From assembly GCA_016125385.1 (NCBI GenBank), contig WGLV01000037.1, positions 1-64,000 of the forward strand: a stretch of DNA of 64,000 nucleotides, read 5' to 3'. Under the pieces are notes generated by a model that was not told the origin of the DNA, did no database searches, and saw nothing but the letters and a program-made list of their open reading frames with translations. How positions within the stretch are numbered: position 1 is the stretch's first letter; each line of letters opens with the position of its first letter. The position numbers were made by a program, and so were the translations under genes. Positions 2 to 41,767 of this stretch are shown piece after piece. This DNA comes from a bacterium (lineage in GTDB: Bacteria; Hinthialibacterota; Hinthialibacteria; Hinthialibacterales; Hinthialibacteraceae).

Positions 2-1444
2 AGCCCTAAGGTCTTTTTGATGATACTCTTTAATAACACGCGCTTCCCCTCGTGCTTCTTATGTTCTCAGCAAACTGAGATTACACGAGTTAGCGCGTGT
101 TTCCATGTCTACCCAACGCACAGATTCTTAGAACGAACCATTTATATACCCGCAGCCGGAGCAACTGATGACTCGTTAAAACTCTCGGGTCCGTCGCCAT
201 TACGCAACATGCTAAACTTTGTCATGAAAAGAGCGGTCGAGTCAAGCACATCTTACATCAAATTAAGCGGTGCATTTGAAGAATTTAACGAAAAATTCTT
301 AACAGAATCAAGTGAAGATGGCTTTTCTATATCAAATTTAATAAAAGATATCAACGAAGAGACAAATGGATGGCGCACAAAATTTGGAATAGACATAAAT
401 ACAATAAAACCAGAAGAAATTGTAAAAAATCTATTAATGCACTGGATAGAAGACGAACGCTTAAACAATGAAAGAGTTGATATAAAATCACTCGGACAGG
501 GATTTCAACGCCATTTAATCTACACATTGATCAGACTCGCAAATAAGTACAGAGCCAACGCTCCTTCCAAAAAGAAAGAGTTTAAGCCTGATTTTCAACT
601 AATCCTGTTCGAAGAACCGGAAGCATTCCTGCATCCTTCACAGCAAGAGAACCTTAAATTATCTTTAAAGACTTTATCCAAGGAAACACAGATATTAATC
701 ACTTCGCATTCCCCGCATTTTGCCTCCAAACAAATTCAGGAGATGACTGGGCTAATTAAATTAACTCGACCAACTAATGATACTATTGCAAAACAGCTAA
801 CACAGAAAGACATCAAGGAGTTATGCGAGGACAACACAGGATTATATGAAGTTTTTTGCAATATAATAAACGATTCAAATTCAAGTTCATCATTAAAAAA
901 TATTATAAAAAATAAAGGTCTCGGAAATGAAAATCCTGATTTACCGCAAAAGCAATATTTAGAAAAATTTAAATATATGCTTTACTTAGATTCAGAAAGG
1001 TCATCTGTCTTTTTTGCAAATAGAACCTTGATTTGCGAGGGAGCTTCAGAAAAAATTTTTTTAGATTTATTCATTGATGAAAATATTCCAGAGCTCCGCT
1101 ACAAGCAAATCTATATACTTGATGCAATGGGGAAATTTAATATTCATAGATTCATGCACCTATTTAATAAACTAGGGATATACCATTCAATACTTTTTGA
1201 TAGTGACCAAGATAGAGAATATCACTCGACTATCAATAATTTCATCAAAAACAAAAAAAATTCATACACAAAACAGATCGAATCCTTCGAACAAGATATG
1301 GAACATTTTCTTGGTATACAGAATGTTGGACGTCGCGATGAAAAACCACTTAACATTGTTCAAAATTATATGGATAGGAAAATTGAACAAGATAGAATAG
1401 ACAAACTCATTGATATCTTAAGAAGATGCTTAGCATTTGAATAA
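2..1444 (+). CDS. OLD-family ATPase/TOPRIM nuclease, 5' truncated
   Basis: C-terminal part of an overcoming-lysogenisation-defect (OLD) type protein, a family of ATP-driven nucleases used in phage defence. The frame is open to the window edge, so the TTG/ATG at 17/20 need not be the start. Visible in order: an ABC-type signature (SLGQGFQRHLI, about residue 160 counted from base 17), Walker B (LILFEEPEAFLHP, about 195-207), a switch-His region (ITSHSPHF), then a TOPRIM domain with its acidic Glu in LICEGASEK (about 340) and an Asp cluster in FDSDQD (about 394). No Walker A is present, which fits loss of the N-terminus. The gene is strikingly AT-rich, with AAA/ATA-rich codon use unlike all its neighbours, suggesting horizontal transfer. 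No UvrD-like helicase (GajB) lies downstream, so Gabija is not supported by the visible half. Confidence 0.8.
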   Translation, partial: SPKVFLMILFNNTRFPSCFLCSQQTEITRVSACFHVYPTHRFLERTIYIPAAGATDDSLKLSGPSPLRNMLNFVMKRAVESSTSYIKLSGAFEEFNEKFLTESSEDGFSISNLIKDINEETNGWRTKFGIDINTIKPEEIVKNLLMHWIEDERLNNERVDIKSLGQGFQRHLIYTLIRLANKYRANAPSKKKEFKPDFQLILFEEPEAFLHPSQQENLKLSLKTLSKETQILITSHSPHFASKQIQEMTGLIKLTRPTNDTIAKQLTQKDIKELCEDNTGLYEVFCNIINDSNSSSSLKNIIKNKGLGNENPDLPQKQYLEKFKYMLYLDSERSSVFFANRTLICEGASEKIFLDLFIDENIPELRYKQIYILDAMGKFNIHRFMHLFNKLGIYHSILFDSDQDREYHSTINNFIKNKKNSYTKQIESFEQDMEHFLGIQNVGRRDEKPLNIVQNYMDRKIEQDRIDKLIDILRRCLAFE

Positions 1445-1505: not shown

Positions 1506-2315
1506 TTATTTGGCGGGTTTGAGGTAGACAGCGGCGGCGGGTTCGAGCACGCGGAAGGTAAGCGATTCGGTGAAGTAGAGTTCAACCGAATCGCGGTCGT
1601 GTCCGGCGTATCCGATGGAAATATCCTGACCGACCGTCAGCGTATAGTCGCCGCCGCGCCGGGAGATCAGCAGCCCCCCCTTCAGGTTGGGGCTGTGGAC
1701 GATTTCGTTATCGAGCAGGTTGTGGATCGTCTTGCGGACGGGATAGCCGCAGCTGACCGCCCGATCGAGCGCCTCGCCCGCCTCAACGCCCAAAACCAGC
1801 GTGAACGGACCGCCGACGCCCGCGCCAAGCATGCGTTTACGCGCCTCAGACACCAGGCCGGGCAGTTCCGTCATCTCCTTCGATAGTTTAAGCGGTTCGT
1901 GCGGCGAAGTTTCAATTACGCCCTTGATGCCGGCGTCTTTGAAGCCGTCGAACACGGCTTCATCTTCGAAGGCCGCCAGCTTGCGGGCGGCTTCACGGAT
2001 CGGGTCGAAATCAGGATCGGCGGCGCCGCGCGCGATGCTGTCCAGTTCCATCTGATTCAGTGAAAACGGAACTCGAATCTCAATCAGTGGCAGCGACTGG
2101 CGCACCCCCCAGGCGACGCCGTCGCGGGCGTCTTTTTTCTTCAAGTCGAGACGGCCGAGATTCACGGACGAAAAATCCCAGCCGTGCGGGCCGTCAAAAT
2201 CAACCAGATATCGCGCCGAAAGCCACGTTTTCAGCTGGGCGCGCGCTTCTTCGTCAATCGCCTTCCAAGCTTCAGCGCCAATCGGCGCCTGAGAACGTCG
2301 CAAAATATCAGTCAT
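1506..2315 (-). CDS. Encapsulin shell protein (family 1)
   Basis: HK97-fold capsid-like protein that self-assembles into a protein nanocompartment. Length (269 aa) and order of conserved blocks match classical encapsulins: N-terminal LRRSQAPI, the GPHGWDF segment, WGVRQSLPLIEIR, the FEDEAVFDG helix of the P-domain, GPFTLVLG, and near the C-terminus RGGDYTLTVGQDISIGY and FTESLTFRV. The start at 2315 is chosen over the upstream in-frame ATG at 2321, because the AGGAG at 2322-2326 directly touches the first ATG but lies 6 nt from the second, and family members begin at this point. It is the second gene of an operon, 42 bp after the ferritin-like cargo gene, so the compartment should store iron. 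Confidence 0.96.
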   Translation of the reverse strand: MTDILRRSQAPIGAEAWKAIDEEARAQLKTWLSARYLVDFDGPHGWDFSSVNLGRLDLKKKDARDGVAWGVRQSLPLIEIRVPFSLNQMELDSIARGAADPDFDPIREAARKLAAFEDEAVFDGFKDAGIKGVIETSPHEPLKLSKEMTELPGLVSEARKRMLGAGVGGPFTLVLGVEAGEALDRAVSCGYPVRKTIHNLLDNEIVHSPNLKGGLLISRRGGDYTLTVGQDISIGYAGHDRDSVELYFTESLTFRVLEPAAAVYLKPAK

Positions 2316-2357
2316 GTTCATCTCCTGTTCTTACTCATCAACTTTCACGAAGGCCTA

Positions 2358-2726
2358 TCAGCGATTCGGGCCCAGATTGAGGCTTGAACCGCCGCCTGAA
2401 GCGGGCGAGCCGCCGCCCTCTTCGCCGTCCATCTTCTTTTCTTCAGCAAGGTGGATGGGGCCTTCGGTGAACAGATAGGCCCGAAGTTCCTCGTCCATCT
2501 TGGGATAACGGCGCCGGATCCATTCCAGCGTCATGGCGGCGTGTTCGGCTTCTTCGTCGCGGTTATGGGCGAGAATGGCCCGCAGGTCTTCGTCTTCGGT
2601 AGCGTCAACGCGGTGTTGATACCAGTCGATAGCCTCCAGTTCTTCGATCAGGCTGCGCAGCGCGCGGTGCATCTCGCGCGTTTCTTTGGTAAGCCACTCG
2701 GGCGGTTCATGATATTGCATCGCCAT
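2358..2726 (-). CDS. Encapsulated ferritin-like protein (EncFtn)
   Basis: Ferroxidase cargo of encapsulin nanocompartments. In this family two-helix subunits assemble into a decamer with di-iron centres at subunit interfaces. The conserved residues are all present: Glu28, Glu29, Glu31, Trp35 and Tyr36 in the first helix, and Glu59 and His62 in the AHNRDEEAEHAAMTLEW segment, corresponding to E31/E32/E34/W38/Y39/E62/H65 of the Rhodospirillum rubrum protein. Residues 99-122 are a Gly/Ser/Glu-rich linker ending in SSLNLGPNR, which should be the cargo-loading peptide that docks inside the shell. The ATG at 2726 has a good AGGAGG at about 2733-2738. It precedes the shell gene in the same operon. 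Confidence 0.95.
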   Translation of the reverse strand: MAMQYHEPPEWLTKETREMHRALRSLIEELEAIDWYQHRVDATEDEDLRAILAHNRDEEAEHAAMTLEWIRRRYPKMDEELRAYLFTEGPIHLAEEKKMDGEEGGGSPASGGGSSLNLGPNR

Positions 2727-5318: not shown

Positions 5319-8300
5319 ATGAAAGCAGTCGGGATGAGACGAACCGCGTTGTGGCTTTTTTTGTTGTGTGGCTTGATCGGGATGGGTGGGCCGGTCGCCC
5401 GGGCTCAATTCTCTCCTACGCTAAAACCGATCGGGACTTCGACGCCGACTCCAACGCCGAAGTTGGCGATTCCCACGTTCAGCATCCCCACCGCGCTGCC
5501 AACGATCGCGGTTCCCACTATCGCGGCGCCGTTCGATCTGGCTGCAGTGGCGGGAGGCGTCACCACCACGGCGGTGGTATACAGCGCGGGAATGGATACG
5601 ATCGACGGGACCTACCTCGTCCAGGTGACCAGCGCGTTCGCGAGCGCGATTCCCGCCAGCGCAAAATTTGAACTGATCGATTCGACCGGCGCGGCGGTAA
5701 TGAGCTGGAGCGATTCGATCACGCTCAGCGACGCCAGCGGCCTGACGACTTACATCCAACCAAACACGTTTTCTTTGCCGATCTCCGCGAGCAACCGTCT
5801 GCCCGTCGCGGCGTACCAGATGAGAATCACCGTCAGCCTGGATGAAGCCGCGCTGACGGCCTCCGGAACCGCTTTCACGCCCGACGCCAATCCAGCCAAC
5901 AACATCGTCACGACAGCCGCGCAGACCCTTCTGCAGACCTCGGGCGTGTTGCGTTTCAGCAACATCGCAACGGAGATCACCAGCCTGAGTTCATATACGA
6001 CCCCGCCGTTGACGATCAATGGCGACGGTTCATGGAACGACCTGATTCCATTCACTATCAGCGGGCTCATCGTCACGCGGAACTCCACAACGCTCGACCT
6101 GACCGTGGTGAACGGCGGGGCGGCGTTTTCTGCTCCTTCGACTCCCTACTCTCCCACCGGGGTGTGGTCATTCATTTACAAGGGCGGCCAACTCGAACCC
6201 GGAGGGGCTTTCGCCGACCTGTATGTTGAACTGCCGGACGGCGTGGCGTACAAGCAGGAGTCGTCAAGCGCAATCAGTTTCAAGCAGGACGCGTTCATGC
6301 TGGGCCGGCAAAAACTGGCGCAGGACCTGACTCCATTTTCGACTACGATCAATATCCCCACCGCGTTCCGCTGGATGGACGAAGAACTGCCTTTTACGCT
6401 GCAATGCAGCAAACAGATATTTTCCGTCACGGCGGGACTGGAACTCGCCAACGCCACGCCGGTCTATCAATACAAGCCGCATTTCAACGCGCCCTACGGG
6501 CCGGGGACGCGCGCGTCAAACGACGGTTATTTCAACTCGGGGCTGATCGCCTCGACGACGCCCGCCGTCACGGCGAGCGGGATTCAAGCGGCGCTGACCG
6601 GCGGCGGGGGTTCGTACCAGGCGTCGTATCCAACCGCGAGCACGGTCTCGTCCGCGTCACGCACGATCCAGATCAAAGACGGCGTTATCGACCCGGCGGC
6701 GTCACGGCTGAACGGCGTCACCATCACCATGACGGTGAATGAAAGCGGCTGTGGCGCGGGTTCGGACGTATCCTACTCGCTGGCGTTCAGCCAATCCGCC
6801 GTGGTTACCTCAAACGGCGGCGTCGAGGCGGACTCGGCGCTCAACGCCGCCATCTCGCCCGCGTTCAACACCTACGCGTTCGATCCGGTCAGCGCGGCGG
6901 TGTGGTATTCACCGGGCGTCCTGACGGGCGCTTCGACTTCGCTCGCGGACGAACCAAGCGAGTTTCTGCAGGCGATGAGCGCGCGCGGCGGCGAAACGCT
7001 GTATTCATACGGCGACGCCGAGTTCAGCGCGGGCAGCGGGCTGTTCGCGGGAATGAACCTCATGCAGGACGAACTGACGGGAACGAGTTTCACCGTCAGC
7101 ATCGGCGGCGACTCAATCGACCTGATCAACACCGAATACACCAAACTATACGCAAGGCGGGGCGGGTTCAGCGGCGTGGTTCACGCACAGAATTCAGCGC
7201 AATCGCTGAACATCTATCCTGACGCGGAATGCGGCGGCGACGGCTACGCGATCACGCTGAGCGCGTTTGGACAGGCGTATCTCGACAATGACTCGGACGG
7301 ATTGGACTCAACCACCGATGGCGAGATCGAGGTCCCCTGGCCGTCGGAGATCACCGTGCCGTTCGAAGGGATGACGTTGAACGCCTGCGGCAACCTGAGC
7401 GACGGCGATATACCCGCCGAGGCGAAAGAAGAAACGCAAACGCTGGCCTACTGGCTGGCTGACGTTCGGCTTCTGACTCTGGCGTTCGATCTGAAAGACG
7501 GCGCGGCGAGCGACGACGACCGTACGCTGTGGATATCAACGAAAAACACCATCTCTCATCTGGGCGACGAGCCCGTGATGCAGATCAACCTGAGACCGTG
7601 TGGAACCATCGCCGAATCGCGCATCGAGGCGCCGCTGGTCTCCACCTACGACGATTTTCCCGCGACCGTACAGACGATCTACCTGTCGGCATACGACGGA
7701 GGGAGCGACGCCAACGGATTTTACAGCCTGATCTCCGATCTCAACGTGTCGTACTTCAACCCGCCGCACGTGCAATCGATCGTGAAGAGCACGGTGGGCC
7801 GGGTGGCGAGCGGCGACGCGTGGTTCGCCTCCAGCGGTGAAGCGGACTCGGACGGCGACGGATTCGAAGACGGCTACAGCGGTTCATTCAGCGATATCGC
7901 CGACAAGATCGACGACTACGCGGATTCGAACCGGGTGAACGTGGAAGCCCTGTTCGCCAACCTGATCACGCTGCGTTACGAGCTGGAATACAACACGACG
8001 AAGAAGGAATTCAAATCGACGGAGCCCATCGGGCAGGACCTGATCGTGCTCGACATCATCTCTTCGGTGGATTACCTCGACGCGGAACGAACCGAGGTCA
8101 GTTTTGGCATCGACGTGAGCGGCATCCCCGAATTGAGCTTGAGCAGTGCGGCGGATCAGTTCAGCGATCAGATCGAAGAAACGTTTCTCGGCCCGGTGCG
8201 CGACAAGCTGGACGACGCCGCCGAAACACTGAACCAGAGCCTGAGCGCGGCGCTTCGCCCGAAACTGGAAGAATTGATCGAACCTTACGTGGCGGACCTG

Positions 8301-9980
8301 CTGGACCGCATGCAGACGGAACTGGGCCAGTATCCCGACCCGGCCGACGCGGAGAACTGGCTGCTGACGCACGCCGATTTCGACGCGATGTTGAACGACC
8401 TGATCAACGATATCGGGCTGACGAGTTACCTGCGCAACGCGGGCATGCCGGCGGTGGAAGTAATCGACGAATTGCTCGACGCGCTGGATGAAATCGAAAC
8501 CGTATTGCGTTTCAGCCCTGAAGACCTCAGCCCGGTGGTGCAGGACGTGCTGGACTACACGCTGGCGCTGGTCGATCTGACGCTGGGATACGATCTCGAC
8601 GAAGTGCTGGCGCCGATCGAAGACACTCGCGACGAGATTATCGCCTATCTTGACGACGAAATCGAACCGCTTTTGCAGGACGCGCGCACCGCGTTTCAAA
8701 ATCCGACCGTTTATCTCGCCGACGTGTTCGACCTGGCGGGCATCAATACCCTGGAATCGGACGTCAAAGACCTGATCCGCGAAATCTTCGCCAATGAAGC
8801 GATCGAAGATTACGAACGGCTGAAAAACCTGCAACCGGATGAAGTCACCGACTACATCGTCGACGCGATTCTGAATTCCGACATGATGAACGAGCTGGAT
8901 TCGCGCGTCATGCAGGCCCTGCAGCCAATTAAGGACGGCCTGGTGGATGCGGCGCAATCGGTGCTGGACGGCGTCAACGACGCGGTAATGGACTTTATCA
9001 AGGAACAGGCCGACGTACTGGACGGCGCCCTGGCCGATCTAAACGACGTGCTCGACTTTGGCGGCGGTTCGCTGAAAGGGTACGCCGTGTTCGCGGGCGA
9101 TGCGCTGGAGAAACTGCACATCGACGGTGAATGGACCACCAAGGTACCCGATGAGATGACCTACACCGCCTATCTCGACATGACGCGCTACCAGGTGAGC
9201 AACTCGGGCGAAGGCTGTTTCGGATCGCTCGACGCGGACGACGTGGTTGATACGCGCATCGGCACGACCGACGTATCGATCGGCTTCGCCGGCGCGGACC
9301 TGACGGCGAAGAAGATTGAAGTCGCGCTGATGATCAGCGGAGGACAACTGGTCAATGTGGGTGGAACCATCGAAACCGAAGGCTCGATCGGCTTCGAGAC
9401 GATGGAGATCTCCGACCCGTCGTTCGGCGTCGGCGTGGGCCAGGTGGAAAACTATATCTGGGCGCGAGCGAAAGTGAGTTTCGACGCGTATCAACTGGAA
9501 GGCGGCATCTTTCTGGGCACGTGCTGCTCGCTCGACCCGCTGGAGATCATCGACCCCGAAGCGGCCTCGCTGCTGTCGATCACCGAAATGCGCGGCGTGT
9601 ACCTGAGCGCGGAGGGCTCGTTCCCGATTTATAACGTGGGCTGCGGGTTCCGCGTGGCGGCGGAGGCGGGCATCGCGATGTGGTACTTCGCCGACGGGCC
9701 GACCTACGGAGGCCGGCTGAGCGCCGGGGCTTACGGCGAAGCGGCTTGCGTGGTGAGCGTTAAAGGCAGCCTGACGCTGACCGGCGGCAAAGAAGGCGAC
9801 GCGTACTACTTCAAGGGCGACGCCTGGGTGGCCGGCGGCGTGGGCGATTGTGAACCGGAAGACTGGGACAGCCCCAGCGACGTACTGGACGACAAGTGGT
9901 GTTACGCCTGCGTGGCCGATATCAATCTGACCTACAAAAACGATGACTGGAGCGTTGATTATGATGTGGACTGCGGTTAA
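5319..9980 (+). CDS. Giant secreted protein (1553 aa), unknown function
   Basis: I do not recognise a family for the full length. Visible: a signal peptide (cleavage near ARAQF, about residue 30), a Thr/Pro-rich linker (about 38-70), then a long Ser/Thr/Gly-rich beta domain to about 840. A calcium-loop-like DSDGDGFEDG follows (about 843-852). Residues about 945-1245 form a very acidic, Leu-rich helical region with repeated amphipathic segments, unlike its flanks. The last 300 residues are beta-rich with many cysteines (TCCSL, VGCGF, WCYACV, VDCG), suggesting disulfides in an exported domain. GAGGA lies upstream of the ATG. Its end overlaps the next gene by 20 bp, so the three giant proteins are probably made together as a cell-surface or extracellular assembly. 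Confidence 0.85.
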   Translation: MKAVGMRRTALWLFLLCGLIGMGGPVARAQFSPTLKPIGTSTPTPTPKLAIPTFSIPTALPTIAVPTIAAPFDLAAVAGGVTTTAVVYSAGMDTIDGTYLVQVTSAFASAIPASAKFELIDSTGAAVMSWSDSITLSDASGLTTYIQPNTFSLPISASNRLPVAAYQMRITVSLDEAALTASGTAFTPDANPANNIVTTAAQTLLQTSGVLRFSNIATEITSLSSYTTPPLTINGDGSWNDLIPFTISGLIVTRNSTTLDLTVVNGGAAFSAPSTPYSPTGVWSFIYKGGQLEPGGAFADLYVELPDGVAYKQESSSAISFKQDAFMLGRQKLAQDLTPFSTTINIPTAFRWMDEELPFTLQCSKQIFSVTAGLELANATPVYQYKPHFNAPYGPGTRASNDGYFNSGLIASTTPAVTASGIQAALTGGGGSYQASYPTASTVSSASRTIQIKDGVIDPAASRLNGVTITMTVNESGCGAGSDVSYSLAFSQSAVVTSNGGVEADSALNAAISPAFNTYAFDPVSAAVWYSPGVLTGASTSLADEPSEFLQAMSARGGETLYSYGDAEFSAGSGLFAGMNLMQDELTGTSFTVSIGGDSIDLINTEYTKLYARRGGFSGVVHAQNSAQSLNIYPDAECGGDGYAITLSAFGQAYLDNDSDGLDSTTDGEIEVPWPSEITVPFEGMTLNACGNLSDGDIPAEAKEETQTLAYWLADVRLLTLAFDLKDGAASDDDRTLWISTKNTISHLGDEPVMQINLRPCGTIAESRIEAPLVSTYDDFPATVQTIYLSAYDGGSDANGFYSLISDLNVSYFNPPHVQSIVKSTVGRVASGDAWFASSGEADSDGDGFEDGYSGSFSDIADKIDDYADSNRVNVEALFANLITLRYELEYNTTKKEFKSTEPIGQDLIVLDIISSVDYLDAERTEVSFGIDVSGIPELSLSSAADQFSDQIEETFLGPVRDKLDDAAETLNQSLSAALRPKLEELIEPYVADLLDRMQTELGQYPDPADAENWLLTHADFDAMLNDLINDIGLTSYLRNAGMPAVEVIDELLDALDEIETVLRFSPEDLSPVVQDVLDYTLALVDLTLGYDLDEVLAPIEDTRDEIIAYLDDEIEPLLQDARTAFQNPTVYLADVFDLAGINTLESDVKDLIREIFANEAIEDYERLKNLQPDEVTDYIVDAILNSDMMNELDSRVMQALQPIKDGLVDAAQSVLDGVNDAVMDFIKEQADVLDGALADLNDVLDFGGGSLKGYAVFAGDALEKLHIDGEWTTKVPDEMTYTAYLDMTRYQVSNSGEGCFGSLDADDVVDTRIGTTDVSIGFAGADLTAKKIEVALMISGGQLVNVGGTIETEGSIGFETMEISDPSFGVGVGQVENYIWARAKVSFDAYQLEGGIFLGTCCSLDPLEIIDPEAASLLSITEMRGVYLSAEGSFPIYNVGCGFRVAAEAGIAMWYFADGPTYGGRLSAGAYGEAACVVSVKGSLTLTGGKEGDAYYFKGDAWVAGGVGDCEPEDWDSPSDVLDDKWCYACVADINLTYKNDDWSVDYDVDCG

Positions 9981-12951
9981 GCGGCTGGGCGCGCTCTGTC
10001 TGACCGCCGCCCTGTTGTGTGCGGGGGGGAGCGCCTTTTCACAAGACGACGGGACGGTCTTTTTCACCGGCGTATCGGGACAGGCCGTCAGCGGCAAGGC
10101 CACTGTGCTGCTGAGATGGTACGCGGCGGACGGCGACCTGCCCTACGAAACCTACAGCGTATACCGCCAGGCGGGCGGGCTGGGTTCAGGCTCGCCGCTG
10201 GAGAAGATCAGCGAAACGCAGCGCCTGCGCAACGAGCCGCTGATCCGCTCGATCTGCGAACAGCCGCGTAACGCTCGCGCGCTGACCGAGCTGATCGACG
10301 TGTTGCAGAACCTGTACGAAAGCCCGATCGGCAACGACGAGTACGCCGGCAAACTGATCGCCGTACTGGATGGCGACGACGCCACATGCACCGCCTGCAC
10401 CATGCGGCGCAACATGCTGGTGCAATCGAACTACCTCGCCGCCATCGTGGAGGGGCTGGGGTATCTCGATGCGCCGGCGCCGGGCGTCTACGGCTATGAA
10501 CTGAGAACGTCATCCAACGGCGGAGACGACGACGTCATCCTGGGACGCATCGAAGTCGACGCCACGGCTCCCAGTCAGCTGCCCGAACCAGCACAGCCGG
10601 AAGAGGTCGACGTCCCCGGAATTCGCGGCCATCTCAAAGTCTTTTTGAAATGGGACATGACGCCCGATCTGGAAGACCACCGCGACGCCATGTTCGGCTA
10701 CAACGTCTACCGGGCCGACGGTGATCGCAGTTCGGATTCATTTTCATCGCTGCTGGCGTCGGGCGCGTTGCGCAAGATGAACCGCCTGCCGCTGCTGACG
10801 CCCTCATCGCAGGCGCTGGGCGACTCGCCGGAAGAAGGCTATTTGTTCGCCGACGACAACCGGACCTTCGGACGATCAGGCCCGACCGGCGCGCCGTTCC
10901 GCGCGGGAGACGAGTATACCTACTGGGTGGCGGCGCGCGATCTGCTGGGGCAACTGGGCAAAGCAAGCGATCCAACCGTCGCGTTGGTGCAGGACAAGCA
11001 GGCTCCCCTGATTCCACGCGGCCTCTCGGCCACGGCGAGAAAACTGAACGCCACGCCCGAAGTCAGCCTGACGTGGGACCGGAATCCCGACGACGCCCGT
11101 TCGTATAACATTTATCGTTTCCGGCGGTACGATCACGCGGGTCATGACGACGCATATTCGCCCATCGACGGAATGACGGAAGGCCTGATCGCCTCGGTTC
11201 CACAACCCGCGACCGGCGCTCCCTCGTTCACCGATCATCAGATTCAGTACCCCGACATGGCCAACATGGCTTACTGGTACTGCGTCTCGGCGGTGGATTT
11301 CTGGGGCAATGAATCGGCGATGTCACCGCCCGAACGCGGCGTGCTGTTCGACATCACCCCGCCGGAGCCGCCCGCGCAACCGTTGATCTGCGTTCACCGG
11401 CGCGAGTGCATGATGACCGATTTCAAACTGGTCAGCGATACGCCGCGCACGGAATCGAAAGAGATATCCCACGTCACGTTCATACTGATTCGCGACAAAG
11501 ACGACATCGCCGCCGCGATCATCCAGACCTCGAATAACCAGGGGACGGACTATAAAACGCTGTTCAGCGAAAAATTTCCCAAAACGGGGCGCCTGACCTT
11601 CGAGAAAGACATCGATCCGTATGGGAAAGATGAGGGCCGGTATTTTGAATTTTCATTCATTGGCGCCGACGGAGAGCGATGCGGTCCCTACCCGGTTCCA
11701 GAGCGTTTTCAGAATGCGCTGTATTCACCCGGCAAGGATCTGGTTTTCGAGATTCACGTGAACTGGGAATACAAGCGGCATTGCGCGCCCGCCGGTCACG
11801 GCCCGGTGCGGCACGATCCCTATAACGACATGGGCGGAATCGAGCCGGTTGAATTCACCTTCAAACAGACCGATGACGCTTACGGCGTGGCGCTGTACCG
11901 CAGCCCCGATTGCGAAAATTTTTACGCGGTCGACGAGGTCAACTTCGACGGCGCCAGCGAACTGACCGTGCTGGACGCCTTCAGGCCCGAGCAGGGCGCG
12001 AGGGTGTGTTACGCGGCGCGGACCTACGATGAGAATCACAATTTCAGTTCGATGACCTATCTCACATCGCAGGTTCTGTTCCCCACGCTGGAGAGCAGCC
12101 TGATCGTTCCTTCGATGCAGAGCGCGACTCCGCTCGGGACTTCATCCGCTCCGGAGACGGCGCTCACCTGGCTGGGCCCCTCCAGCAGCGTTGCGGGATT
12201 CAGAATCTATTTCAGCACGGATGAAAGCGGAACCAGCTCGACCAGCGTATTGCTGAGCCCGAGCGAATATTCATACGACGGCGGCAGCGGGCTGTATACG
12301 GCGCTGCTGTCGTACATCGACGATGAAACCGGCGCGGGACTTTCGATCAGCCAGACATATTACATCACCGCCGAGGCCGTTCTGCAAAACGGTGAAACCT
12401 ACGCGGCGAACAACAATCTGAGTTTTATCTGGTCGGCCGAGCCGGAAGACACGGATGTTCCCGCGTGGCCGGTGCGCGGCATGCCGCCGAGCGGCGATTC
12501 ACTGAGCGCGAAGTGGCTGCCCTCGCCGTCTTCTTCAACCTCCACCGCGCCGCCTCAACCCTTCACTTACGGCGCGGGCGTGCAAATCGGCGTCATGATC
12601 TGGAGCAGCGCGAAAGAAACCGGCATCACGTATGAACACACGCTTTCGGTTGAGCCGCCGTTCATCGTCTACCGCAAGCGCACCGACAAGACGGGGCAAG
12701 CCTATCAGCAGATCAGCCCGTTGATCGAGAGCATCAACTTCGACGCAACCAACGGCGAAGTGCGCGACCCCTTCTTCACGATGGAAGAATTCACCGATAA
12801 CAAAAGAGAACTGGCATTGTATTTTCTCGATACCGTCCGCCTGATTCAGGGCGCGAAGTATGAATACAAGATCGTGCAATTGAACGGCGACTCGGGAGAG
12901 ATCGCCCGCGAGTACGGTCCAAGCAACGACGTGGAGGTCATGGGACCATGA
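9961..12951 (+). CDS. Secreted multi-fibronectin-III-like protein
   Basis: About 997 aa, exported: signal peptide ending near AFSQDD (about residue 30). At least four fibronectin type III-like modules are recognised by the paired pattern of a Leu-x-Trp strand and a Tyr-Asn-x-Tyr-Arg strand: near 40-60 (LLRWYAA, YSVYRQ), 220-245 (FLKWDM, YNVYRAD), 355-385 (SLTWDR, YNIYRF) and 728-750 (ALTWLG, FRIYFS). No catalytic motif was seen. The ATG pair at 9961/9964 gives a proper signal peptide; the upstream ATG at 9943 would put six extra residues before it. It overlaps the preceding gene by 20 bp and the next by 4 bp (ATGA), indicating translational coupling. The role is probably adhesive or structural. 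Confidence 0.85.
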   Translation: MMWTAVKRLGALCLTAALLCAGGSAFSQDDGTVFFTGVSGQAVSGKATVLLRWYAADGDLPYETYSVYRQAGGLGSGSPLEKISETQRLRNEPLIRSICEQPRNARALTELIDVLQNLYESPIGNDEYAGKLIAVLDGDDATCTACTMRRNMLVQSNYLAAIVEGLGYLDAPAPGVYGYELRTSSNGGDDDVILGRIEVDATAPSQLPEPAQPEEVDVPGIRGHLKVFLKWDMTPDLEDHRDAMFGYNVYRADGDRSSDSFSSLLASGALRKMNRLPLLTPSSQALGDSPEEGYLFADDNRTFGRSGPTGAPFRAGDEYTYWVAARDLLGQLGKASDPTVALVQDKQAPLIPRGLSATARKLNATPEVSLTWDRNPDDARSYNIYRFRRYDHAGHDDAYSPIDGMTEGLIASVPQPATGAPSFTDHQIQYPDMANMAYWYCVSAVDFWGNESAMSPPERGVLFDITPPEPPAQPLICVHRRECMMTDFKLVSDTPRTESKEISHVTFILIRDKDDIAAAIIQTSNNQGTDYKTLFSEKFPKTGRLTFEKDIDPYGKDEGRYFEFSFIGADGERCGPYPVPERFQNALYSPGKDLVFEIHVNWEYKRHCAPAGHGPVRHDPYNDMGGIEPVEFTFKQTDDAYGVALYRSPDCENFYAVDEVNFDGASELTVLDAFRPEQGARVCYAARTYDENHNFSSMTYLTSQVLFPTLESSLIVPSMQSATPLGTSSAPETALTWLGPSSSVAGFRIYFSTDESGTSSTSVLLSPSEYSYDGGSGLYTALLSYIDDETGAGLSISQTYYITAEAVLQNGETYAANNNLSFIWSAEPEDTDVPAWPVRGMPPSGDSLSAKWLPSPSSSTSTAPPQPFTYGAGVQIGVMIWSSAKETGITYEHTLSVEPPFIVYRKRTDKTGQAYQQISPLIESINFDATNGEVRDPFFTMEEFTDNKRELALYFLDTVRLIQGAKYEYKIVQLNGDSGEIAREYGPSNDVEVMGP

Positions 12952-15900
12952 AACGGGCCATGTGGATGTATTACGGATGCGCCCTCGCCGCGGCTTGCAT
13001 GACATTCGCCGCCGGATTCGCCTTCGGCGACGGGAAGCCGCTTTTGACCGCGGGCGATTACGACGGCGACGGCTGGAGCGACTACCTGCTGGTGACAAGC
13101 GACGGCGCCGCGCTGCTGCAACAGAACACTGGCGCGGGCGATTTCACCGCGCGGGCGGAATGGCGATACGGCGGCGCCGAAGTAGATGAAGTTCAATTCA
13201 TCGACGTCAACCGCGACGGCGCGCTCGACGCGGCGGCGCGCCACGCGGCGCTGGGCGGCGTCTCGTTCAACCCGGGGCCTGACTTTAAAGCCAACGCGGC
13301 GCAGTGGCTGACCGGGCTGGGCGCGGAGCTCACCGGCGCGGCGGGACTGGGCGATTCCAGCGAAACGCTGATGCTGGGCTTCTCAGGCCAGCCGGGTCTG
13401 GCGCGGCTGACGGTGGGCGAAAAAGGCCTGACGCGCGACGGCTACGAAGCGATGAAAAGCGAAGCCTCCATCACAGCGCTGCAATCGGGCGCGATGCGCG
13501 GGGGCGCGGCGGGCGACCTGGTTCTGCTTACGCGCGGCGCCATCCAGATCGGGCCGTTTCCAACCAGCGGATCGTGGTCGCCGGCGTATTCGCTCGATCT
13601 CGATGGGAACGCCTACAACACCCTGTTGATCGGCCGATTCAACAAAGACGCGAACGACGATGCGATCGCGTTGAACAACGCGGGAAACGCGATATTGGTT
13701 TACGGCGATGCGAGCGGCGCTTACACGAAGCAATCGGTGACGCTCGCTCCCGCCGCGCATTGGATGACAGACGACCTGAACGGCGACGGCCTGAGCGACC
13801 TGATCGCAATCGGCGTAGAACGGAATGAACTGGCGGTCTGGATCAATCAAAGCGGCTCATTCAGCACAACAAACATCAAAACGAGCGGCGAAACGATTGA
13901 CGCGGCCGCGGCGGGATATTTTTCACAAAAAAGCGACAAAGAGATTCTGATGCTGTTGCGCGGCGACGATGGAACCAGCCGGATGGCGGCATTCGGCGGT
14001 TTCGGCTCGGGCACGCCGGTGGAACGGCTCAGCCTCAGCGAACCGATAGCACTGACCAGCAACGGCCCCGCCAACGTGCTGGTGTTCAAGCAGGATGAAC
14101 TCGACCGGGGCGATCCCTTTGCATACGGCTCCTACCACGTGGACGACTGGACGACGCAGGCGAAAATCATAGCGGGTTCGATCGTGGTTTCACGTGAGAT
14201 TCTCGCCGACGGCGCCTTCACGCCCGCGGCCGATGTAACGATCGGCGGACTCGACGTTTTTGGCGATGCAAGCGCGTTGAGCATCGGCGTCAACCAGGTT
14301 AGCGGCGATCGCTCGCAGGTCTCGCTGAGCGCGGCGGCGCCCCCCACCGCGGTGAGGCTGGAAGCATCTCCCGCATCGGGCGCATATTCACGCACGCTGA
14401 GGCCTTCCGCTTCCGTGGAAGACGGCGCGGAGGCTTTTTACCGGATAGACGGCGGCGCATGGACGCCTTATGAATCGGGCGTCACCGAGATCGCCGTAAT
14501 CGATGACTCGGACGTCTCGTTTTACGCCGTCCAAGACGGTCAATACAGCGCCGTCATCACGCGAACCTACACGATGAGCGTCCCCGCATCGTATGACAGC
14601 GACGGCGACGGCATTCCCGACCGGTATGAAGACACGCTGGGGCTGCCGATGTTCTCTAGCGATTTTGATTTTGACGGCGATGGCTGGCTCGATCTGGACG
14701 AGTTGATTCGCGGGAGCGACCCCGCCAGCAGCGCATCGGTTCCAGCCGACTCGGATACGCCGGATCACATCGACGCAAGTATGCCCACCGCAGGCGACGG
14801 CTGGAGCGATTTTGACGAAAGCGCGCGCGGCACGGATGCTTACGATCCCGGCTCAAAGCCGAGCGCATCGGGTTTGTATGAAGGCGAAATCGTCCTGACC
14901 GTACACAACCCGTTCGGCGACGACGCGCGGCTTTCAGCCTACGCAGTGAATGGCGAGAAAATCTCGGCGGGCGCAGTTGATGACGAATCATGGCCGATGC
15001 GGCTGGGCGGCGGCGAGCCATCTATTCTGCGCGCGCAGAGCGAAAACGGCTCGACGCTGACACTGCTCGCTTACTCGTGGACGTTTCAACCGGCGTGGGA
15101 TCCCGCCAGCCTGGCGACGGACGGCATGAGCGCATCGGCCTGGCTCAATTCGGTAAAAACCTACGCACAAAGCGCGTTCGTGGAACCCCGCTCGCTTGAG
15201 CTCAGCGCGCATTCGACCGCCGCCGCCGTACTTTGGCAATACTGGCTGGCGAAGGCCACCGGTTTACCCGGTCCCATCGTTTCCAGCGACGCGAGTTCAT
15301 ACCCCAGCGAGACCCGCGTTCAGGAATTGAGCCAGCGCTACGATCTCGATGGCGCGTTTGACGCGCTCGACGCGGGGCTGGTCAGCGATCACGCATGGAG
15401 CCAACTCGTCACAACTCTGATCGCCGCCGCGGAAATGGAAGCGCCCGCGCGGCCGGTCGACGCCCTGTTGGCGGAGTGGCTGTGGGGAGAGATCGACGAA
15501 TCAAGCAAACCCGCGACGCTGAGCGACGCTCAAATTATGGCCGCGGCGGACGCGGCGCATACGCTGGTTGAGAGCATCGCCTCGCGCGAGATCGCCCTGA
15601 GCGGTGAGATATCGCACACGGATGGTGAGTTGACCCTGCGAACCAGCGATCAATCGTACCGGCTGGACGCGGGGTCCGCCGTACTGGCGGACGGCGACAT
15701 CCTGTCGGCGACGGTTCGGTTATCAGCCACGGCGGACGAAACGGCGGCGAAGCTGGTGAAGGTGATCTCGCTTACATCGAACGTTTCACTGAACGAAACG
15801 GATTCAGACGGCGACGGTTTGCCGGACCAATGGGAGGCATACTATTTCGCCTCGCAGGACGCGAAGCCGGGAGAGGACCCCGACGCGGATGGATTCACCA

Positions 15901-16052
15901 ACCTGTCGGAACTGAACGGTTATTCAAACCCGATCGATGGATCATCGCGTCCTTCGGCTACGACGCCCACGCCGTTCCCGACGCCTCCACCCGAGGTAAC
16001 GCCAACGCCAACGCCGCCGCATACCGCGGTCATCGACTGGCTGGCGTACTGA
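12948..16052 (+). CDS. Secreted FG-GAP/calcium-repeat protein with Thr-Pro tail
   Basis: 1034 aa with a signal peptide (about 1-27). Residues about 30-330 carry FG-GAP/VCBS-like repeats with Asp-rich loops (DYDGDGWSD, DVNRDGALD, DLNGDGLSD), typical of beta-propeller surface proteins. A segment around 475-545 (ASPASGAYS, FYRIDGG, FYAVQDG) resembles the C-terminal domain of chitobiases. Thrombospondin type-3-like calcium loops follow at about 550, 575-590 and 952-990. A Thr/Pro linker (about 1004-1024) leads to a final tail ending Asp-Trp-Leu-Ala-Tyr. Two other secreted proteins in this window share that W-x-[L/A]-Y end, which may be a sorting tag. Last gene of the operon, followed by a terminator. 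Confidence 0.85.
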   Translation: MKRAMWMYYGCALAAACMTFAAGFAFGDGKPLLTAGDYDGDGWSDYLLVTSDGAALLQQNTGAGDFTARAEWRYGGAEVDEVQFIDVNRDGALDAAARHAALGGVSFNPGPDFKANAAQWLTGLGAELTGAAGLGDSSETLMLGFSGQPGLARLTVGEKGLTRDGYEAMKSEASITALQSGAMRGGAAGDLVLLTRGAIQIGPFPTSGSWSPAYSLDLDGNAYNTLLIGRFNKDANDDAIALNNAGNAILVYGDASGAYTKQSVTLAPAAHWMTDDLNGDGLSDLIAIGVERNELAVWINQSGSFSTTNIKTSGETIDAAAAGYFSQKSDKEILMLLRGDDGTSRMAAFGGFGSGTPVERLSLSEPIALTSNGPANVLVFKQDELDRGDPFAYGSYHVDDWTTQAKIIAGSIVVSREILADGAFTPAADVTIGGLDVFGDASALSIGVNQVSGDRSQVSLSAAAPPTAVRLEASPASGAYSRTLRPSASVEDGAEAFYRIDGGAWTPYESGVTEIAVIDDSDVSFYAVQDGQYSAVITRTYTMSVPASYDSDGDGIPDRYEDTLGLPMFSSDFDFDGDGWLDLDELIRGSDPASSASVPADSDTPDHIDASMPTAGDGWSDFDESARGTDAYDPGSKPSASGLYEGEIVLTVHNPFGDDARLSAYAVNGEKISAGAVDDESWPMRLGGGEPSILRAQSENGSTLTLLAYSWTFQPAWDPASLATDGMSASAWLNSVKTYAQSAFVEPRSLELSAHSTAAAVLWQYWLAKATGLPGPIVSSDASSYPSETRVQELSQRYDLDGAFDALDAGLVSDHAWSQLVTTLIAAAEMEAPARPVDALLAEWLWGEIDESSKPATLSDAQIMAAADAAHTLVESIASREIALSGEISHTDGELTLRTSDQSYRLDAGSAVLADGDILSATVRLSATADETAAKLVKVISLTSNVSLNETDSDGDGLPDQWEAYYFASQDAKPGEDPDADGFTNLSELNGYSNPIDGSSRPSATTPTPFPTPPPEVTPTPTPPHTAVIDWLAY

Positions 16053-16088
16053 GAGAATTCAGATTACCCGTGCGTAACAACCTGGACG

Positions 16089-16124
16089 CCGCCCCGGAAG
16101 ATCACCGGGGCGGTTTTGTTTTTA
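16089..16124 (+). terminator. Rho-independent terminator
   Basis: CCGCCCCGG (16089-16097) pairs perfectly with CCGGGGCGG (16105-16113) across a 7-nt loop, followed by TTTTGTTTTT. It closes the giant-protein operon. Confidence 0.9.
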
Positions 16125-35403: not shown

Positions 35404-38400
35404 CTAAAAATCGTATTTCCAGAATACCCCGACGCCGGTGTTTTTATCGAGGCCCAGCTGACTTTCGACGGAGATCGTGGGCGTCAGCTCGATCTCGACT
35501 TTGACGCGGCTGGAATCTTTTCCAAAGCCCTGTTCGAGATCGACGTAGACATCATCGGTAAGGTACTTGCCGAGACCGACGGTGGTTTTGCTCATGTCGC
35601 CGCCTTCGCCGGCGCGTAACTCAATCTGGTCGACGCCCAGCAGCGAGCGCATCTCACCCATGACGTCGAACGCGCCCGACCCACCTCTCAAGGTATTCGC
35701 CGCCTGAGCGAGCTGGACGGCCTGCAGAGGGGTAATATCGGTCAGCCGTCTCCCGAAGAGCAAACGTGAAAGCGCCTCGTCTGACGGCAGCGGCGGGTTG
35801 CTTTGCAGATTCATACGCGGCGATGATGCGGGGCCGGATAGATTCAGCGTAAATTCATCTCCTTTCCGGGTGGTTTGCGCCGCGACGGTAAGATACGGGT
35901 TCGCGGGATCACCGGAAAACTGGACGGTCCCCTGATTCAACGCCATCCGATTGCTGAAGAAATTGAAGAAACCACGCACCACGGAAAGAGAGCCATTGAC
36001 TCTGGGCCGCTGGGTCGAGCCCGTCACGTCAAGCGAACCGCTCCATTCGGAATCGAGACCGCGTCCACGCACAAACATACGTCCGGGAATCTTCACCTTC
36101 AGATCGAGTTCAGCCGTAACCGGCGCGGCGGAAGAACTCGAAGCCGACGGCGTCAATGACGCCGCGCGGGTGGAATCAACCACGTTCAGTTGTTCGATCG
36201 ATTCAGGCAACCGGTCAGGAATGCGGATTTCAATCGGCGACGCTTCAAGCGAACCGCTCAACACCAGGCTGGACGCCTTGCCCTTCAGGGCCAGATCGCC
36301 ACTCACGGTCGCGGTGAGATCGTCCTGACGAATCAATTGCGCCTGATGCAGCGCAAGAACAAGCGACAGCGGCTTCTGCAACGATAAGGGCGCCTCGCCT
36401 GAGCCTGAAATTGAACCCACCGCTCCATCGGTCATCCGCAATCGCCGCAGCTTGAGGACGCCCTCACCGGGAGCGGCCTCAGCCAGTAAATTCACGTCCC
36501 GCAGTACGACGCCATAGTCAAGATGATCGTATGCGCCGCTGACCATCTCGACGCGGCCCGCGATCGCGGGTTGAGCCAGCGTTCCATCCAGAGCGAGATC
36601 GGCGTTGATGACGCCTTCCATTCTCTGCCCTTCAAGAAGCAGCAACGCAGGAAGCACCGAAGCGTTGAGCCGGCCTTGCAACGAACCGGAGAGAGATTCA
36701 TCATCAGGAAGATGAAAACGGAACGGCTGGAGCGACAATTCAAGTGGAATTCGCGCTTCGGCGGTGACGGGTTGAGGCAAGACATCCGCGATTCGAGCGC
36801 TCGCGGCCAGCACCCGGCTGGCGTACCGGGCGTGGAGATCGAGAGACGCGTCACGTACATTATTGAAAGCGGGCCGGGCGAGCCGGATACGCTCTCCCCG
36901 AACGGTCAGATCGAATCGAGGGAGCAATGGATCGCCGCTCAAGCGCAGCGAGGCGTCAATAGCGCCCGTCACGTCATCGACGCCCACAAGGCGCGCCCAG
37001 GCAAGCGGCGCACGAGTGGCGCTGGCGATCATCGAGACGGATCGAGAACCTACGCCGCCGGAGAGCGTGATCTCACCCGAACCAGCGCGAGCGTCAATCG
37101 CATCGATTTCGAATCCATCTCCGGAAAATGAGATCCGCGCGGGATGGCGTAATTCGAATTCCGCGCCGTCGTAATCGGCGCGAAGCACATCAAGCGATAG
37201 ATGCGATTCGCCGCCGTGAGAATACGATCCACGCGAGTGGACCGAAAAGGAGCGCTTCGCCTCCCCCGACACGCTCGTCTTCCATTGAAGCGTATCACCT
37301 CCGGATGCATTCACAATCAGATCACTGATGGCAACATCATGATACCGCGCGCCAGCGGCTTCAACCTGAGCATCCAGCGACAAACGAGGCCACACGCCAT
37401 CAGCCCGTCCCCGCGCGGTGAACTTTTCAACTTCGCCAAAACGCGAATTGAGATTCGTCACGCTCGCGTCAAAACGGGAGCGGATCAGATCGGTGGAAGA
37501 CGCATCAAGCACAATGGAACAGGAACCACTCAACGGTTCACGCAGAAGCTCACCAAGCGGAGACAGATCGCTGGATTCCAGCGCCAGTTGACCGGTAATG
37601 CGTTTGGAAGCGGGTTCCGCGGATAGCGATCCGTTCAGTTGCGCGCCGGGAGCGGAAGCACGAAGGTCCGTCAATTCGATCCGCCGGTCATACAGTCCGA
37701 AACGGGACGAGGCATTCAAGGTCATCTCGCCACGAGAAAGCCGCGCGCGCCATTCGCCTTTTGGCTCGGTCACTCCAGTCACATTCACTTCGGCGGTCAG
37801 TTCTCCAAGCGGCTGGCCATCCACTCGAGCGTCGAGGCTGGCGGCGGTCATCGAAGCGCGGAGATCATCCAGCGGCCCGAATGCGGAACCGGACGCGATC
37901 ATTGAACCGGCTAACGCACGACCCGCGGCGCCGGATAGCGGCGCAAGCGATCGAAGATCGGCCCTCCATTGCACATCAACCGACTGGGAGGCGAGCTCAA
38001 CCGCCCCGGAGGCGGATGCGGAGACCGTCGCGCTGGAAGCGTGCAATTCAGCGACTCGCAACGTTGTTCCATTTAACAGATTCAGTTCGGCGCCGGCTTC
38101 AACCCTCCGCCCCGCTAAGCGATCGAGCGGAGCGGGCGCATTACGCAATCCATTCGCTTCAGCGCGGAGACGAGATGATAACGATTGGCTCCAGCTGGAT
38201 GAGACAAGATTCCCCGTCACAGACAAGACGCCACCAAGAGACGACGCTGGCGACGGAGAGAGAATCGACACATCGTTCACGCGTCCATCCAGCGACAAAG
38301 ATACGGACTCGACACGCGGATCGGCGACGCCCGACAGGCGCAGAGCATCACTGGCGGCGCGAACAGTCAGCGCATCGATGTGAACGCCATCGGCGCGATT

Positions 38401-39792
38401 CGATTCACCGGAGAAGCTGAACGCGAGATCGGGGATGCGGCGCACGCCATTAGCGACAGTCACGCCACACACATCCGCTGAGGCTTCGATTTGAGCCGAG
38501 GGCCAAGACGAAAACGCCGAAAAGATAGAATCACTCGGGCGTACTCGCGCTGTAACATCCATCAAGCGGACGCCCGCGCTGGCGGCGACGACGCCGGACG
38601 CGCTCAATGACGCAGCCATCGAAGGCGTTTGCGCCGGGCCCGACGCGGACACGGTAACCGACGCGGCGCCCGACAACGGTTGATTCACCCAGGGCTGAAG
38701 CGCGGATAAATCATCCAGACGGCCGTTCAGCGTTGCGTCAATCACATGGCTGGATAACGCGTATACGCCACCGGCGGCGAGCTCAGCGCCGCGCGCGTTG
38801 AGATGAAAATCGTTTACACGGATGGTTTGAGGATCAGGCGACGCCAGCGCGAGAGAAAACGAACCGCCTTCCGCGAGCCACGACGGCCAATCACGCGCGG
38901 CGCCCTCCATGTCAGGACTCAGCGTCCCTTCGAACGCACAATGGGGGGCGTCATCCAGACCGAGGGTCAGACTGGCCTGGACGATCCCCAGCGGCGGCGC
39001 GACGAGCTCCCAACGGCCATGCCATTCATGCAGCGGGCCTTCACCCTTCAACACCGATTCGATGGAACGAACATCCTTCAATCCCAATAAGGCCATCAAG
39101 CCCGAGTCTTCATCCAAATGGATTTCAGAGTCGATCTTCAAACGAGGCGAAGCGCCCGCGATCGAGGCTTCCGCCTGAATCAATGGACGTTCGGCGCCGG
39201 ATTCGCGCACGCTGAAGCGGCTTTGCAACAGAGACGGCCCGGCGTGCGTTCTGAATTCACCGCTGGCGGAACAAGTCAGTTCCCTGCCCGCCACGGCTTC
39301 GGCGATATGGAGTTTATCAAGCGAAAAACGGCGGATCGACACGCGCGGCGCCTCGGAGGGCAAACGGAGAGAAGGCCAACGCTCGGATGGCGGTTTCGCT
39401 TCACTCTCATTGGCACGGGCCGGTTTACGCGTCACTTCGATTGAAGCGACGGTCAACTCACCCACGTCGACCGCGCCGCGCAGCAGCGGCGCGGCGCCAA
39501 GCGTGAAATGGACGCCGCGAACCATCAGCCACTCACCCTCTGAATCGGAGAGAGTCACTTCGCCGACTCGGAGATCAAACGGGATGAAGCCGCTCAAGCC
39601 CTTTATAGAGACGCGCGCCCTGGCCGACTCGCTCAGGCGATCTGAAAGCCACGAAGCCAGCGCCCGTTTGGCGGGCGGCGCCTGTAACATTGCGAACGCC
39701 AGAGTCAACAAAGCCACGATACCCGCCAGCGTAAGGATCAGCCAGCGAGCGAATCGCCTGCGGCGAGACGGGATGGTTACTTGTTCATTCAT
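35404..39792 (-). CDS. tamB: TamB-like translocation/assembly protein
   Basis: 1462-aa inner-membrane-anchored periplasm-spanning protein. An Arg-rich cytoplasmic start (SRRRRFAR) is followed by one transmembrane helix (LILTLAGIVALLTLAFAML). AsmA/TamB-type beta-strand repeats follow over more than 1000 residues, in the form of a lipid-conducting groove. The C-terminal about 340 residues are the conserved TamB domain (RGFFNFFSNRMALNQGTVQF, LTVAAQTTR, LLFGRRLTDITPLQAVQLAQ) ending Lys-Tyr-Asp-Phe. Such proteins form a bridge to the outer membrane for lipid transport and/or outer-membrane protein assembly. Its ATG overlaps the stop of the upstream tamA gene (TGATG), a tight coupling that matches their partnership. 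Confidence 0.92.
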   Translation of the reverse strand: MNEQVTIPSRRRRFARWLILTLAGIVALLTLAFAMLQAPPAKRALASWLSDRLSESARARVSIKGLSGFIPFDLRVGEVTLSDSEGEWLMVRGVHFTLGAAPLLRGAVDVGELTVASIEVTRKPARANESEAKPPSERWPSLRLPSEAPRVSIRRFSLDKLHIAEAVAGRELTCSASGEFRTHAGPSLLQSRFSVRESGAERPLIQAEASIAGASPRLKIDSEIHLDEDSGLMALLGLKDVRSIESVLKGEGPLHEWHGRWELVAPPLGIVQASLTLGLDDAPHCAFEGTLSPDMEGAARDWPSWLAEGGSFSLALASPDPQTIRVNDFHLNARGAELAAGGVYALSSHVIDATLNGRLDDLSALQPWVNQPLSGAASVTVSASGPAQTPSMAASLSASGVVAASAGVRLMDVTARVRPSDSIFSAFSSWPSAQIEASADVCGVTVANGVRRIPDLAFSFSGESNRADGVHIDALTVRAASDALRLSGVADPRVESVSLSLDGRVNDVSILSPSPASSLGGVLSVTGNLVSSSWSQSLSSRLRAEANGLRNAPAPLDRLAGRRVEAGAELNLLNGTTLRVAELHASSATVSASASGAVELASQSVDVQWRADLRSLAPLSGAAGRALAGSMIASGSAFGPLDDLRASMTAASLDARVDGQPLGELTAEVNVTGVTEPKGEWRARLSRGEMTLNASSRFGLYDRRIELTDLRASAPGAQLNGSLSAEPASKRITGQLALESSDLSPLGELLREPLSGSCSIVLDASSTDLIRSRFDASVTNLNSRFGEVEKFTARGRADGVWPRLSLDAQVEAAGARYHDVAISDLIVNASGGDTLQWKTSVSGEAKRSFSVHSRGSYSHGGESHLSLDVLRADYDGAEFELRHPARISFSGDGFEIDAIDARAGSGEITLSGGVGSRSVSMIASATRAPLAWARLVGVDDVTGAIDASLRLSGDPLLPRFDLTVRGERIRLARPAFNNVRDASLDLHARYASRVLAASARIADVLPQPVTAEARIPLELSLQPFRFHLPDDESLSGSLQGRLNASVLPALLLLEGQRMEGVINADLALDGTLAQPAIAGRVEMVSGAYDHLDYGVVLRDVNLLAEAAPGEGVLKLRRLRMTDGAVGSISGSGEAPLSLQKPLSLVLALHQAQLIRQDDLTATVSGDLALKGKASSLVLSGSLEASPIEIRIPDRLPESIEQLNVVDSTRAASLTPSASSSSAAPVTAELDLKVKIPGRMFVRGRGLDSEWSGSLDVTGSTQRPRVNGSLSVVRGFFNFFSNRMALNQGTVQFSGDPANPYLTVAAQTTRKGDEFTLNLSGPASSPRMNLQSNPPLPSDEALSRLLFGRRLTDITPLQAVQLAQAANTLRGGSGAFDVMGEMRSLLGVDQIELRAGEGGDMSKTTVGLGKYLTDDVYVDLEQGFGKDSSRVKVEIELTPTISVESQLGLDKNTGVGVFWKYDF

Positions 39793-41645: not shown

Positions 41646-41652
41646 GGTTCGT

Positions 41653-41658
41653 ATTATA
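41653..41658 (-). promoter_or_regulatory. Candidate -10 box giving a leaderless tamA transcript
   Basis: On the minus strand TATAAT is followed by 7 nt and then the ATG at 41645, the spacing expected if transcription starts at the start codon. No good -35 was found. If the true start is 41609 it is simply an ordinary promoter. Confidence 0.4.
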
Positions 41659-41767
41659 CCCAATTCATCACTGAATCACCCGCGAAGGCGGCCGCTCATC
41701 CTATTCAACCACGCTTCGCCTTCGTACAATAACCTGTGAATGCATTCTTTGTCTGATGGGGTATACA

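Follow-up and report, generated by a model that had tools for sequence, protein, structure and literature searches.

A candidate exported scaffold or adhesion unit made of two linked giant proteins, with an exchangeable third subunit

Main finding

In a 64,000-nucleotide stretch of bacterial contig WGLV01000037.1 (the window), one operon encodes three giant secreted proteins, here called A, B and C. From comparison of sequences and predicted folds, we lean towards reading A and B as two halves of a single exported, non-catalytic scaffold or adhesion unit, with C as an exchangeable presenting subunit. Three lines of evidence argue for A and B functioning as a single unit: natural fusion of B to A, co-occurrence of the two, and constant gene order. 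A structural or adhesive assembly is argued by the Fn3 rod of B, the cysteine-bearing domain of A, the calcium loops of C, the lack of any enzyme, and the cohesin and dockerin modules found with some homologues.

Operon architecture and surroundings

The coordinates of the three genes and their main features are collected in Table 1. As listed, the open reading frame of B spans 9943-12951 and encodes 1002 aa from the ATG at 9943; the ATG at 9961 is most likely its start, which makes B 996 aa long and its overlap with A 20 bp. Between B and C the overlap is 4 bp (ATGA). Of the terminator-like sites in the region, the stem downstream of C is the strongest; since their number (19, versus 17.8 in shuffles) is not above shuffles, it is the strength of this one stem that makes the case for a terminator. 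The next gene encodes an ABC ATPase whose listed frame starts inside C; the domains matched in it start only past the terminator, so the operon probably comprises A, B and C alone. Sec-type signal peptides can be read by eye at the N termini of all three proteins and of their homologues. The first-pass annotation, which had described overlapping genes, a terminator and three signal peptides, is borne out on each of these points.

Table 1. Features of the A, B and C operon (positions within the window).
Feature	Position	Strand	Description
Gene A	5319..9980	+	1553 aa; signal peptide and Pro-rich linker, followed by beta domains, the acidic helical block and a C-terminal domain of long strands with conserved Cys
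Acidic helical block of A	8139..9047	+	Residues 941-1243; 72 D+E and 16 K+R in 303 residues; mostly absent from other-lineage fusions
Long-stranded C-terminal domain of A	9054..9977	+	Residues 1246-1553; ~16 long strands
Gene B	9961..12951	+	996 aa: signal peptide and chain of Fn3 domains
First Fn3-like domain of B	10078..10590	+	Helical insertion; marker domain of the A-B pair
Gene C	12948..16052	+	1034 aa, a short form; FG-GAP repeats, a conserved core bearing TSP3-like calcium loops, and a Pro-Thr tail
FG-GAP_3 repeats of C over family cut-off	13056..13907	+	13056-13232 and 13773-13907
Terminator-like stem	16088..16114	+	10 pairs (9 G-C), then TTTGTTTTT

Elsewhere in the window (35404-41663, minus strand), a gene for TamB (1462 aa) adjoins one for an Omp85 protein (623 aa), from which we conclude that the organism probably has two membranes; Sec export by itself is therefore no proof that A, B and C leave the cell instead of residing in the periplasm. 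Two further loci of the window lie upstream of the operon. At 1506-2726 (minus strand), an encapsulin gene (Linocin_M18, E = 8e-82) and a gene resembling that of encapsulated ferritin (EncFtn-like, E = 1e-39) lie side by side, a known kind of nanocompartment pair for iron storage. An ORF at the window edge (17-1444, plus strand) encodes a possible defence nuclease with AAA and OLD-like TOPRIM domains.

Predicted structures of the three proteins

Protein A matched no Pfam family and nothing meaningful in NCBIfam. The AlphaFold2 model of residues 560-1553 (mean pLDDT 72, pTM 0.37) places beta domains first, then the helical block, then the long strands that run up to the C terminus, and together with residue counts it reproduces the composition first proposed for this protein: beta domains, an acidic helical block and a Cys-rich end. 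Conservation across lineages is highest in the last ~130 residues. The acidic block looks like an accessory, as it is mostly missing from the fusions described below. Foldseek comparison of the model with the PDB gave no confident structural match, and no fold was assigned; the top hits include ApoB100, vitellogenin, LptD and Tom40, with query TM-scores of ~0.1. The likeness to ApoB and vitellogenin, at TM-scores of ~0.1 or less, was rejected as homology.

Could the long strands of A instead build a barrel in the outer membrane, through which B and C are exported or by which they are anchored? They are amphipathic and ~16 in number, and LptD, Tom40 and porins do appear among the distant Foldseek hits. 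However, these hits carry low TM-scores and amount to no fold match, A ends in Cys-Gly where an aromatic residue is usual, conserved cysteines are unusual for a barrel, and the last part of the domain is shared with a lineage that probably has a single membrane. We therefore rejected the barrel as an assignment for the C terminus of A and regard this reading as quite improbable.

Protein B likewise has no Pfam family and nothing meaningful in NCBIfam, its Fn3 domains being missed by the Pfam HMMs. Modelled whole by AlphaFold2 (mean pLDDT 74, pTM 0.37) and compared by Foldseek, it is a chain of tandem Fn3 domains, the first with a helical insertion, and the best structural matches include Fn3 receptors and fibronectin; the initial description of B as Fn3-like is thus confirmed where Pfam is blank. 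Of an S-layer, which would form a two-dimensional crystalline lattice on the surface, the one trace is the similarity of B to the Deinococcus HPI layer protein, which is weak, local and at the level of Fn3.

Protein C, first described as FG-GAP repeats plus calcium loops, is indeed that: FG-GAP_3 matches at E = 7e-15 (55.7 bits versus a Pfam cut-off of 26.9), and there are a weak TSP3 match and TSP3-like calcium loops, whose motifs sit in the conserved core. C also has a partial match to the NCBIfam family MtsD (E = 7e-7), but this covers only ~60 residues around the calcium loops and reaches 27.8 bits against a curated cut-off of 800 bits, so membership was rejected. A Tc-type toxin, suggested by FG-GAP, was dismissed as well: SpvB and TcdB domains are absent from A, B and C of the window, and one homologue of C has a sub-threshold TcdB_toxin_midN match (E = 0.29). 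The window genome as a whole holds a large set of FG-GAP proteins, with 119 FG-GAP_3 matches, many in frames of 400-1800 aa.

Conservation of A and B in the class, and the variability of C

The window genome (5.5 Mb) was compared with 13 relatives within its class. A is found in nine of these 14 genomes, at 11 loci, one genome (G003) holding three. B lies directly downstream of A on the same strand at every one of the 11, and C follows B at 10, the exception being an A-B pair without C (G003 contig 8). The trio genes thus belong together, as the synteny check proposed with the operon was meant to establish. The 4-bp overlap of B with C recurs in the window, G005, G003 contig 12, G001 and G002. 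A is split by a contig end in G002, and the frame of B is broken in G011; in G010, two small deletions relative to G012 account for the split frames of A, and gene fission was discarded as an explanation. Both A and B are absent from the remaining five class genomes, including one of the same family (G004). Distances correlate between A and B with r = 0.98 (0.85 within the family) and between A and C with 0.90; as co-inherited genes are expected to correlate, we take these values as supportive only.

C is the variable member. Across complete loci its length ranges from 711 to 1538 aa, with the window protein a short form; several homologues lack the N-terminal FG-GAP region, and at the C terminus there can be a further FG-GAP region, a weak match to H-type lectin or, in G011, a dockerin. 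The idea that operon coupling reflects a fixed three-part stoichiometry does not survive this comparison: one A-B locus has no C, the length of C varies and its end domains are swapped, and the coupling of genes in an operon is in any case no demonstration of stoichiometry.

A second, related operon occurs in two genomes of the class (G002 contig 160 and G003 contig 29; L054:3346-12899 and L055:968-10103). Its first protein is large, with FG-GAP at the N terminus and a weak A-like part (E = 2e-4), and its second, an Fn3 protein, is B-like (E = 2e-31 and 5e-23). The third, of ~550 aa, carries the pattern NCYGMS ... GGHTMAV ... YDPN, a Cys-His-Asp/Asn arrangement that resembles a papain-like or C39-like peptidase, which we offer as a lead only; neither Pfam nor the PDB supported it.

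Fusion of B to A in a second lineage

A scan of genome contigs revealed the first fusion, a 2074-aa protein in the metagenome-assembled genome 'bacterium isolate RI_153' (L022). The profile of the A C-terminal domain matched in 9 of 200 relatives of that genome. Among 386 genomes sampled across the domain, it matched only in the window's own class, and a broader profile (A5) added no further lineage, the absence of A from other phyla being based on this sample of a few hundred genomes. At all 12 loci of the second lineage, which is probably Chloroflexota judging by the YLPxVxR-like ends of its proteins, a single protein of ~2000-2700 aa contains a B-type region followed by an A-type region. 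Two of the fusions, L081 (3239-3800) and L087 (4926-5500), have a cupredoxin-like N-terminal domain and no dockerin.

The first domain of B also tracks A. A profile of the helix-inserted Fn3 domain matched in 18 of 37 genomes: every genome that has A, and none of the 19 that lack it. As the genomes were chosen to include both A-bearing and A-less ones and the copies behind the profile were themselves A-linked, the result tests consistency and is not an unbiased survey. The matches adjoin or are fused to an A-type protein, bar one on a contig of 3.7 kb, which stops short of where A would be expected and is too short to judge. The search for homologues that occur singly and unlinked, which might have spoken against the coupling, therefore returned no B first domain away from A other than on that contig. 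Judged by these profile matches, the domain is not a generic Fn3.

Cohesin and dockerin modules, and the question of enzymes

Some of the fusions carry modules of a known assembly system. Three begin with a dockerin (L083, L084 and L085; E = 3e-6 to 8e-9), the L022 fusion has a similar motif below the cut-off, and in L089 and L091 a dockerin-like stretch can be read by eye just ahead of the B domain. A cohesin is encoded in the gene adjoining the L022 fusion (E = 1.5e-7) and in that adjoining the fusion on G388 contig 27 (E = 9.3e-5), with a weaker match beside the one on G388 contig 85 (E = 1.6e-3); next to L083 the cohesin match is not significant (E = 0.28). In the window's class, one C, that of G011, ends in a dockerin, and A, B and C of the window, including the C-terminal piece of C, have no Pfam Dockerin_1 or Cohesin match, while both modules are present elsewhere in the window genome. 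Their presence on or beside part of the homologues favours an assembly.

These modules also invite another interpretation, in which A and B (and C) are the non-catalytic parts of a cellulosome-like extracellular enzyme complex that bind a polysaccharide or protein substrate, the enzymes being held via cohesin and dockerin. The lectin-like and FG-GAP ends of C would fit such a role, as would the possible peptidase of the related operon. We nevertheless regard it as unlikely: no glycoside hydrolase or other enzyme is encoded in the trio or the fusions, the window trio is without a dockerin, and the peptidase idea lacks family or PDB support. Nor does the trio resemble a cellulosome, which is defined by a scaffoldin and dockerin-bearing enzymes; it has neither enzyme domains nor cohesin repeats.

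That one of the three is itself an enzyme of an unrecognised family, and the operon a degradative set, is highly improbable. A and B do lack any Pfam family, and the models, which cover A 560-1553 and B, are of low confidence in parts. However, searches of Pfam and NCBIfam gave no catalytic family for A, B or C, no enzyme was prominent in sequence-profile searches of the PDB, Foldseek with the two models found no enzyme fold, and invariant positions are occupied mainly by Gly, Cys, Trp, Pro and Tyr, and some by Asp, as is seen in structural domains. The first-pass view that the proteins show no catalytic motif therefore holds, and the structure check proposed with it, for A 560-1553 and B, turned up no known enzyme fold.

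A proposed model for the A-B unit

We propose that A, B and C are first exported by the Sec pathway. The helix-inserted first Fn3 domain of B would then form a stable unit with A by direct contact, disulphides would harden the C-terminal domain of A, and the acidic helices could serve as a spacer. C may bind calcium and present its variable end, which would contact a surface, a polymer or a partner, giving the unit an adhesive role at the cell surface. In part of the second lineage, the A-B unit would be plugged into a larger complex by its dockerin and the neighbouring cohesin. Several observations weigh against a scaffold or adhesion unit: the window trio has neither dockerin nor cohesin, these modules occur only in part of the homologues (L081 and L087 are without dockerin, and some cohesin scores are weak), the pTM of the A model is low, and C varies and is once absent. 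The original proposal of an extracellular assembly in place of a set of enzymes is upheld in one half: synteny, the 12 fusions, the cohesin-dockerin link and the lack of an enzyme fold support an exported, non-enzymatic A-B assembly. Its extracellular location is not upheld in the same way, as Omp85 and TamB make the periplasm the alternative.

More tentatively, A-B could be a new exported two-part block, consisting of an undescribed fold in A and a dedicated helix-inserted Fn3 partner, that occurs in at least two distant lineages and is joined to different larger assemblies via an interchangeable C or via dockerin-cohesin, cupredoxin-like or FG-GAP modules. With this analysis, what was an anonymous series of genes for giant secreted proteins becomes a defined, testable module: a protein family without an entry in the libraries searched, the partner specific to it, and natural fusions that hint at the parts in contact. 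The use of cohesin and dockerin is also tied to a unit without a recognised enzyme.

Relation to known systems

Finally, we would like to place the A-B unit among known exported assemblies; a literature search returned no paper on such proteins and none on MtsD. Like Fn3-repeat surface and receptor proteins, B is modelled as a string of Fn3 domains; however, its first domain carries a helical insertion and is strictly partnered with A. C shares FG-GAP repeats and TSP3-like loops with adhesins such as the cell-cell cohesion protein MtsD, but its similarity to that protein is confined to the calcium loops and falls far under the cut-off. With cohesin-dockerin assemblies, namely cellulosomes and their non-cellulosomal relatives, the link lies in the dockerins and neighbouring cohesin genes of some A-B homologues and in the one dockerin-ended C of the class, whereas the window trio has neither module and no enzymes, and the A-B unit, having no cohesin repeats, is not a scaffoldin. 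In kind, then, the unit would belong with the known modular scaffold or adhesion assemblies; what is new is the undescribed A family that underlies it.
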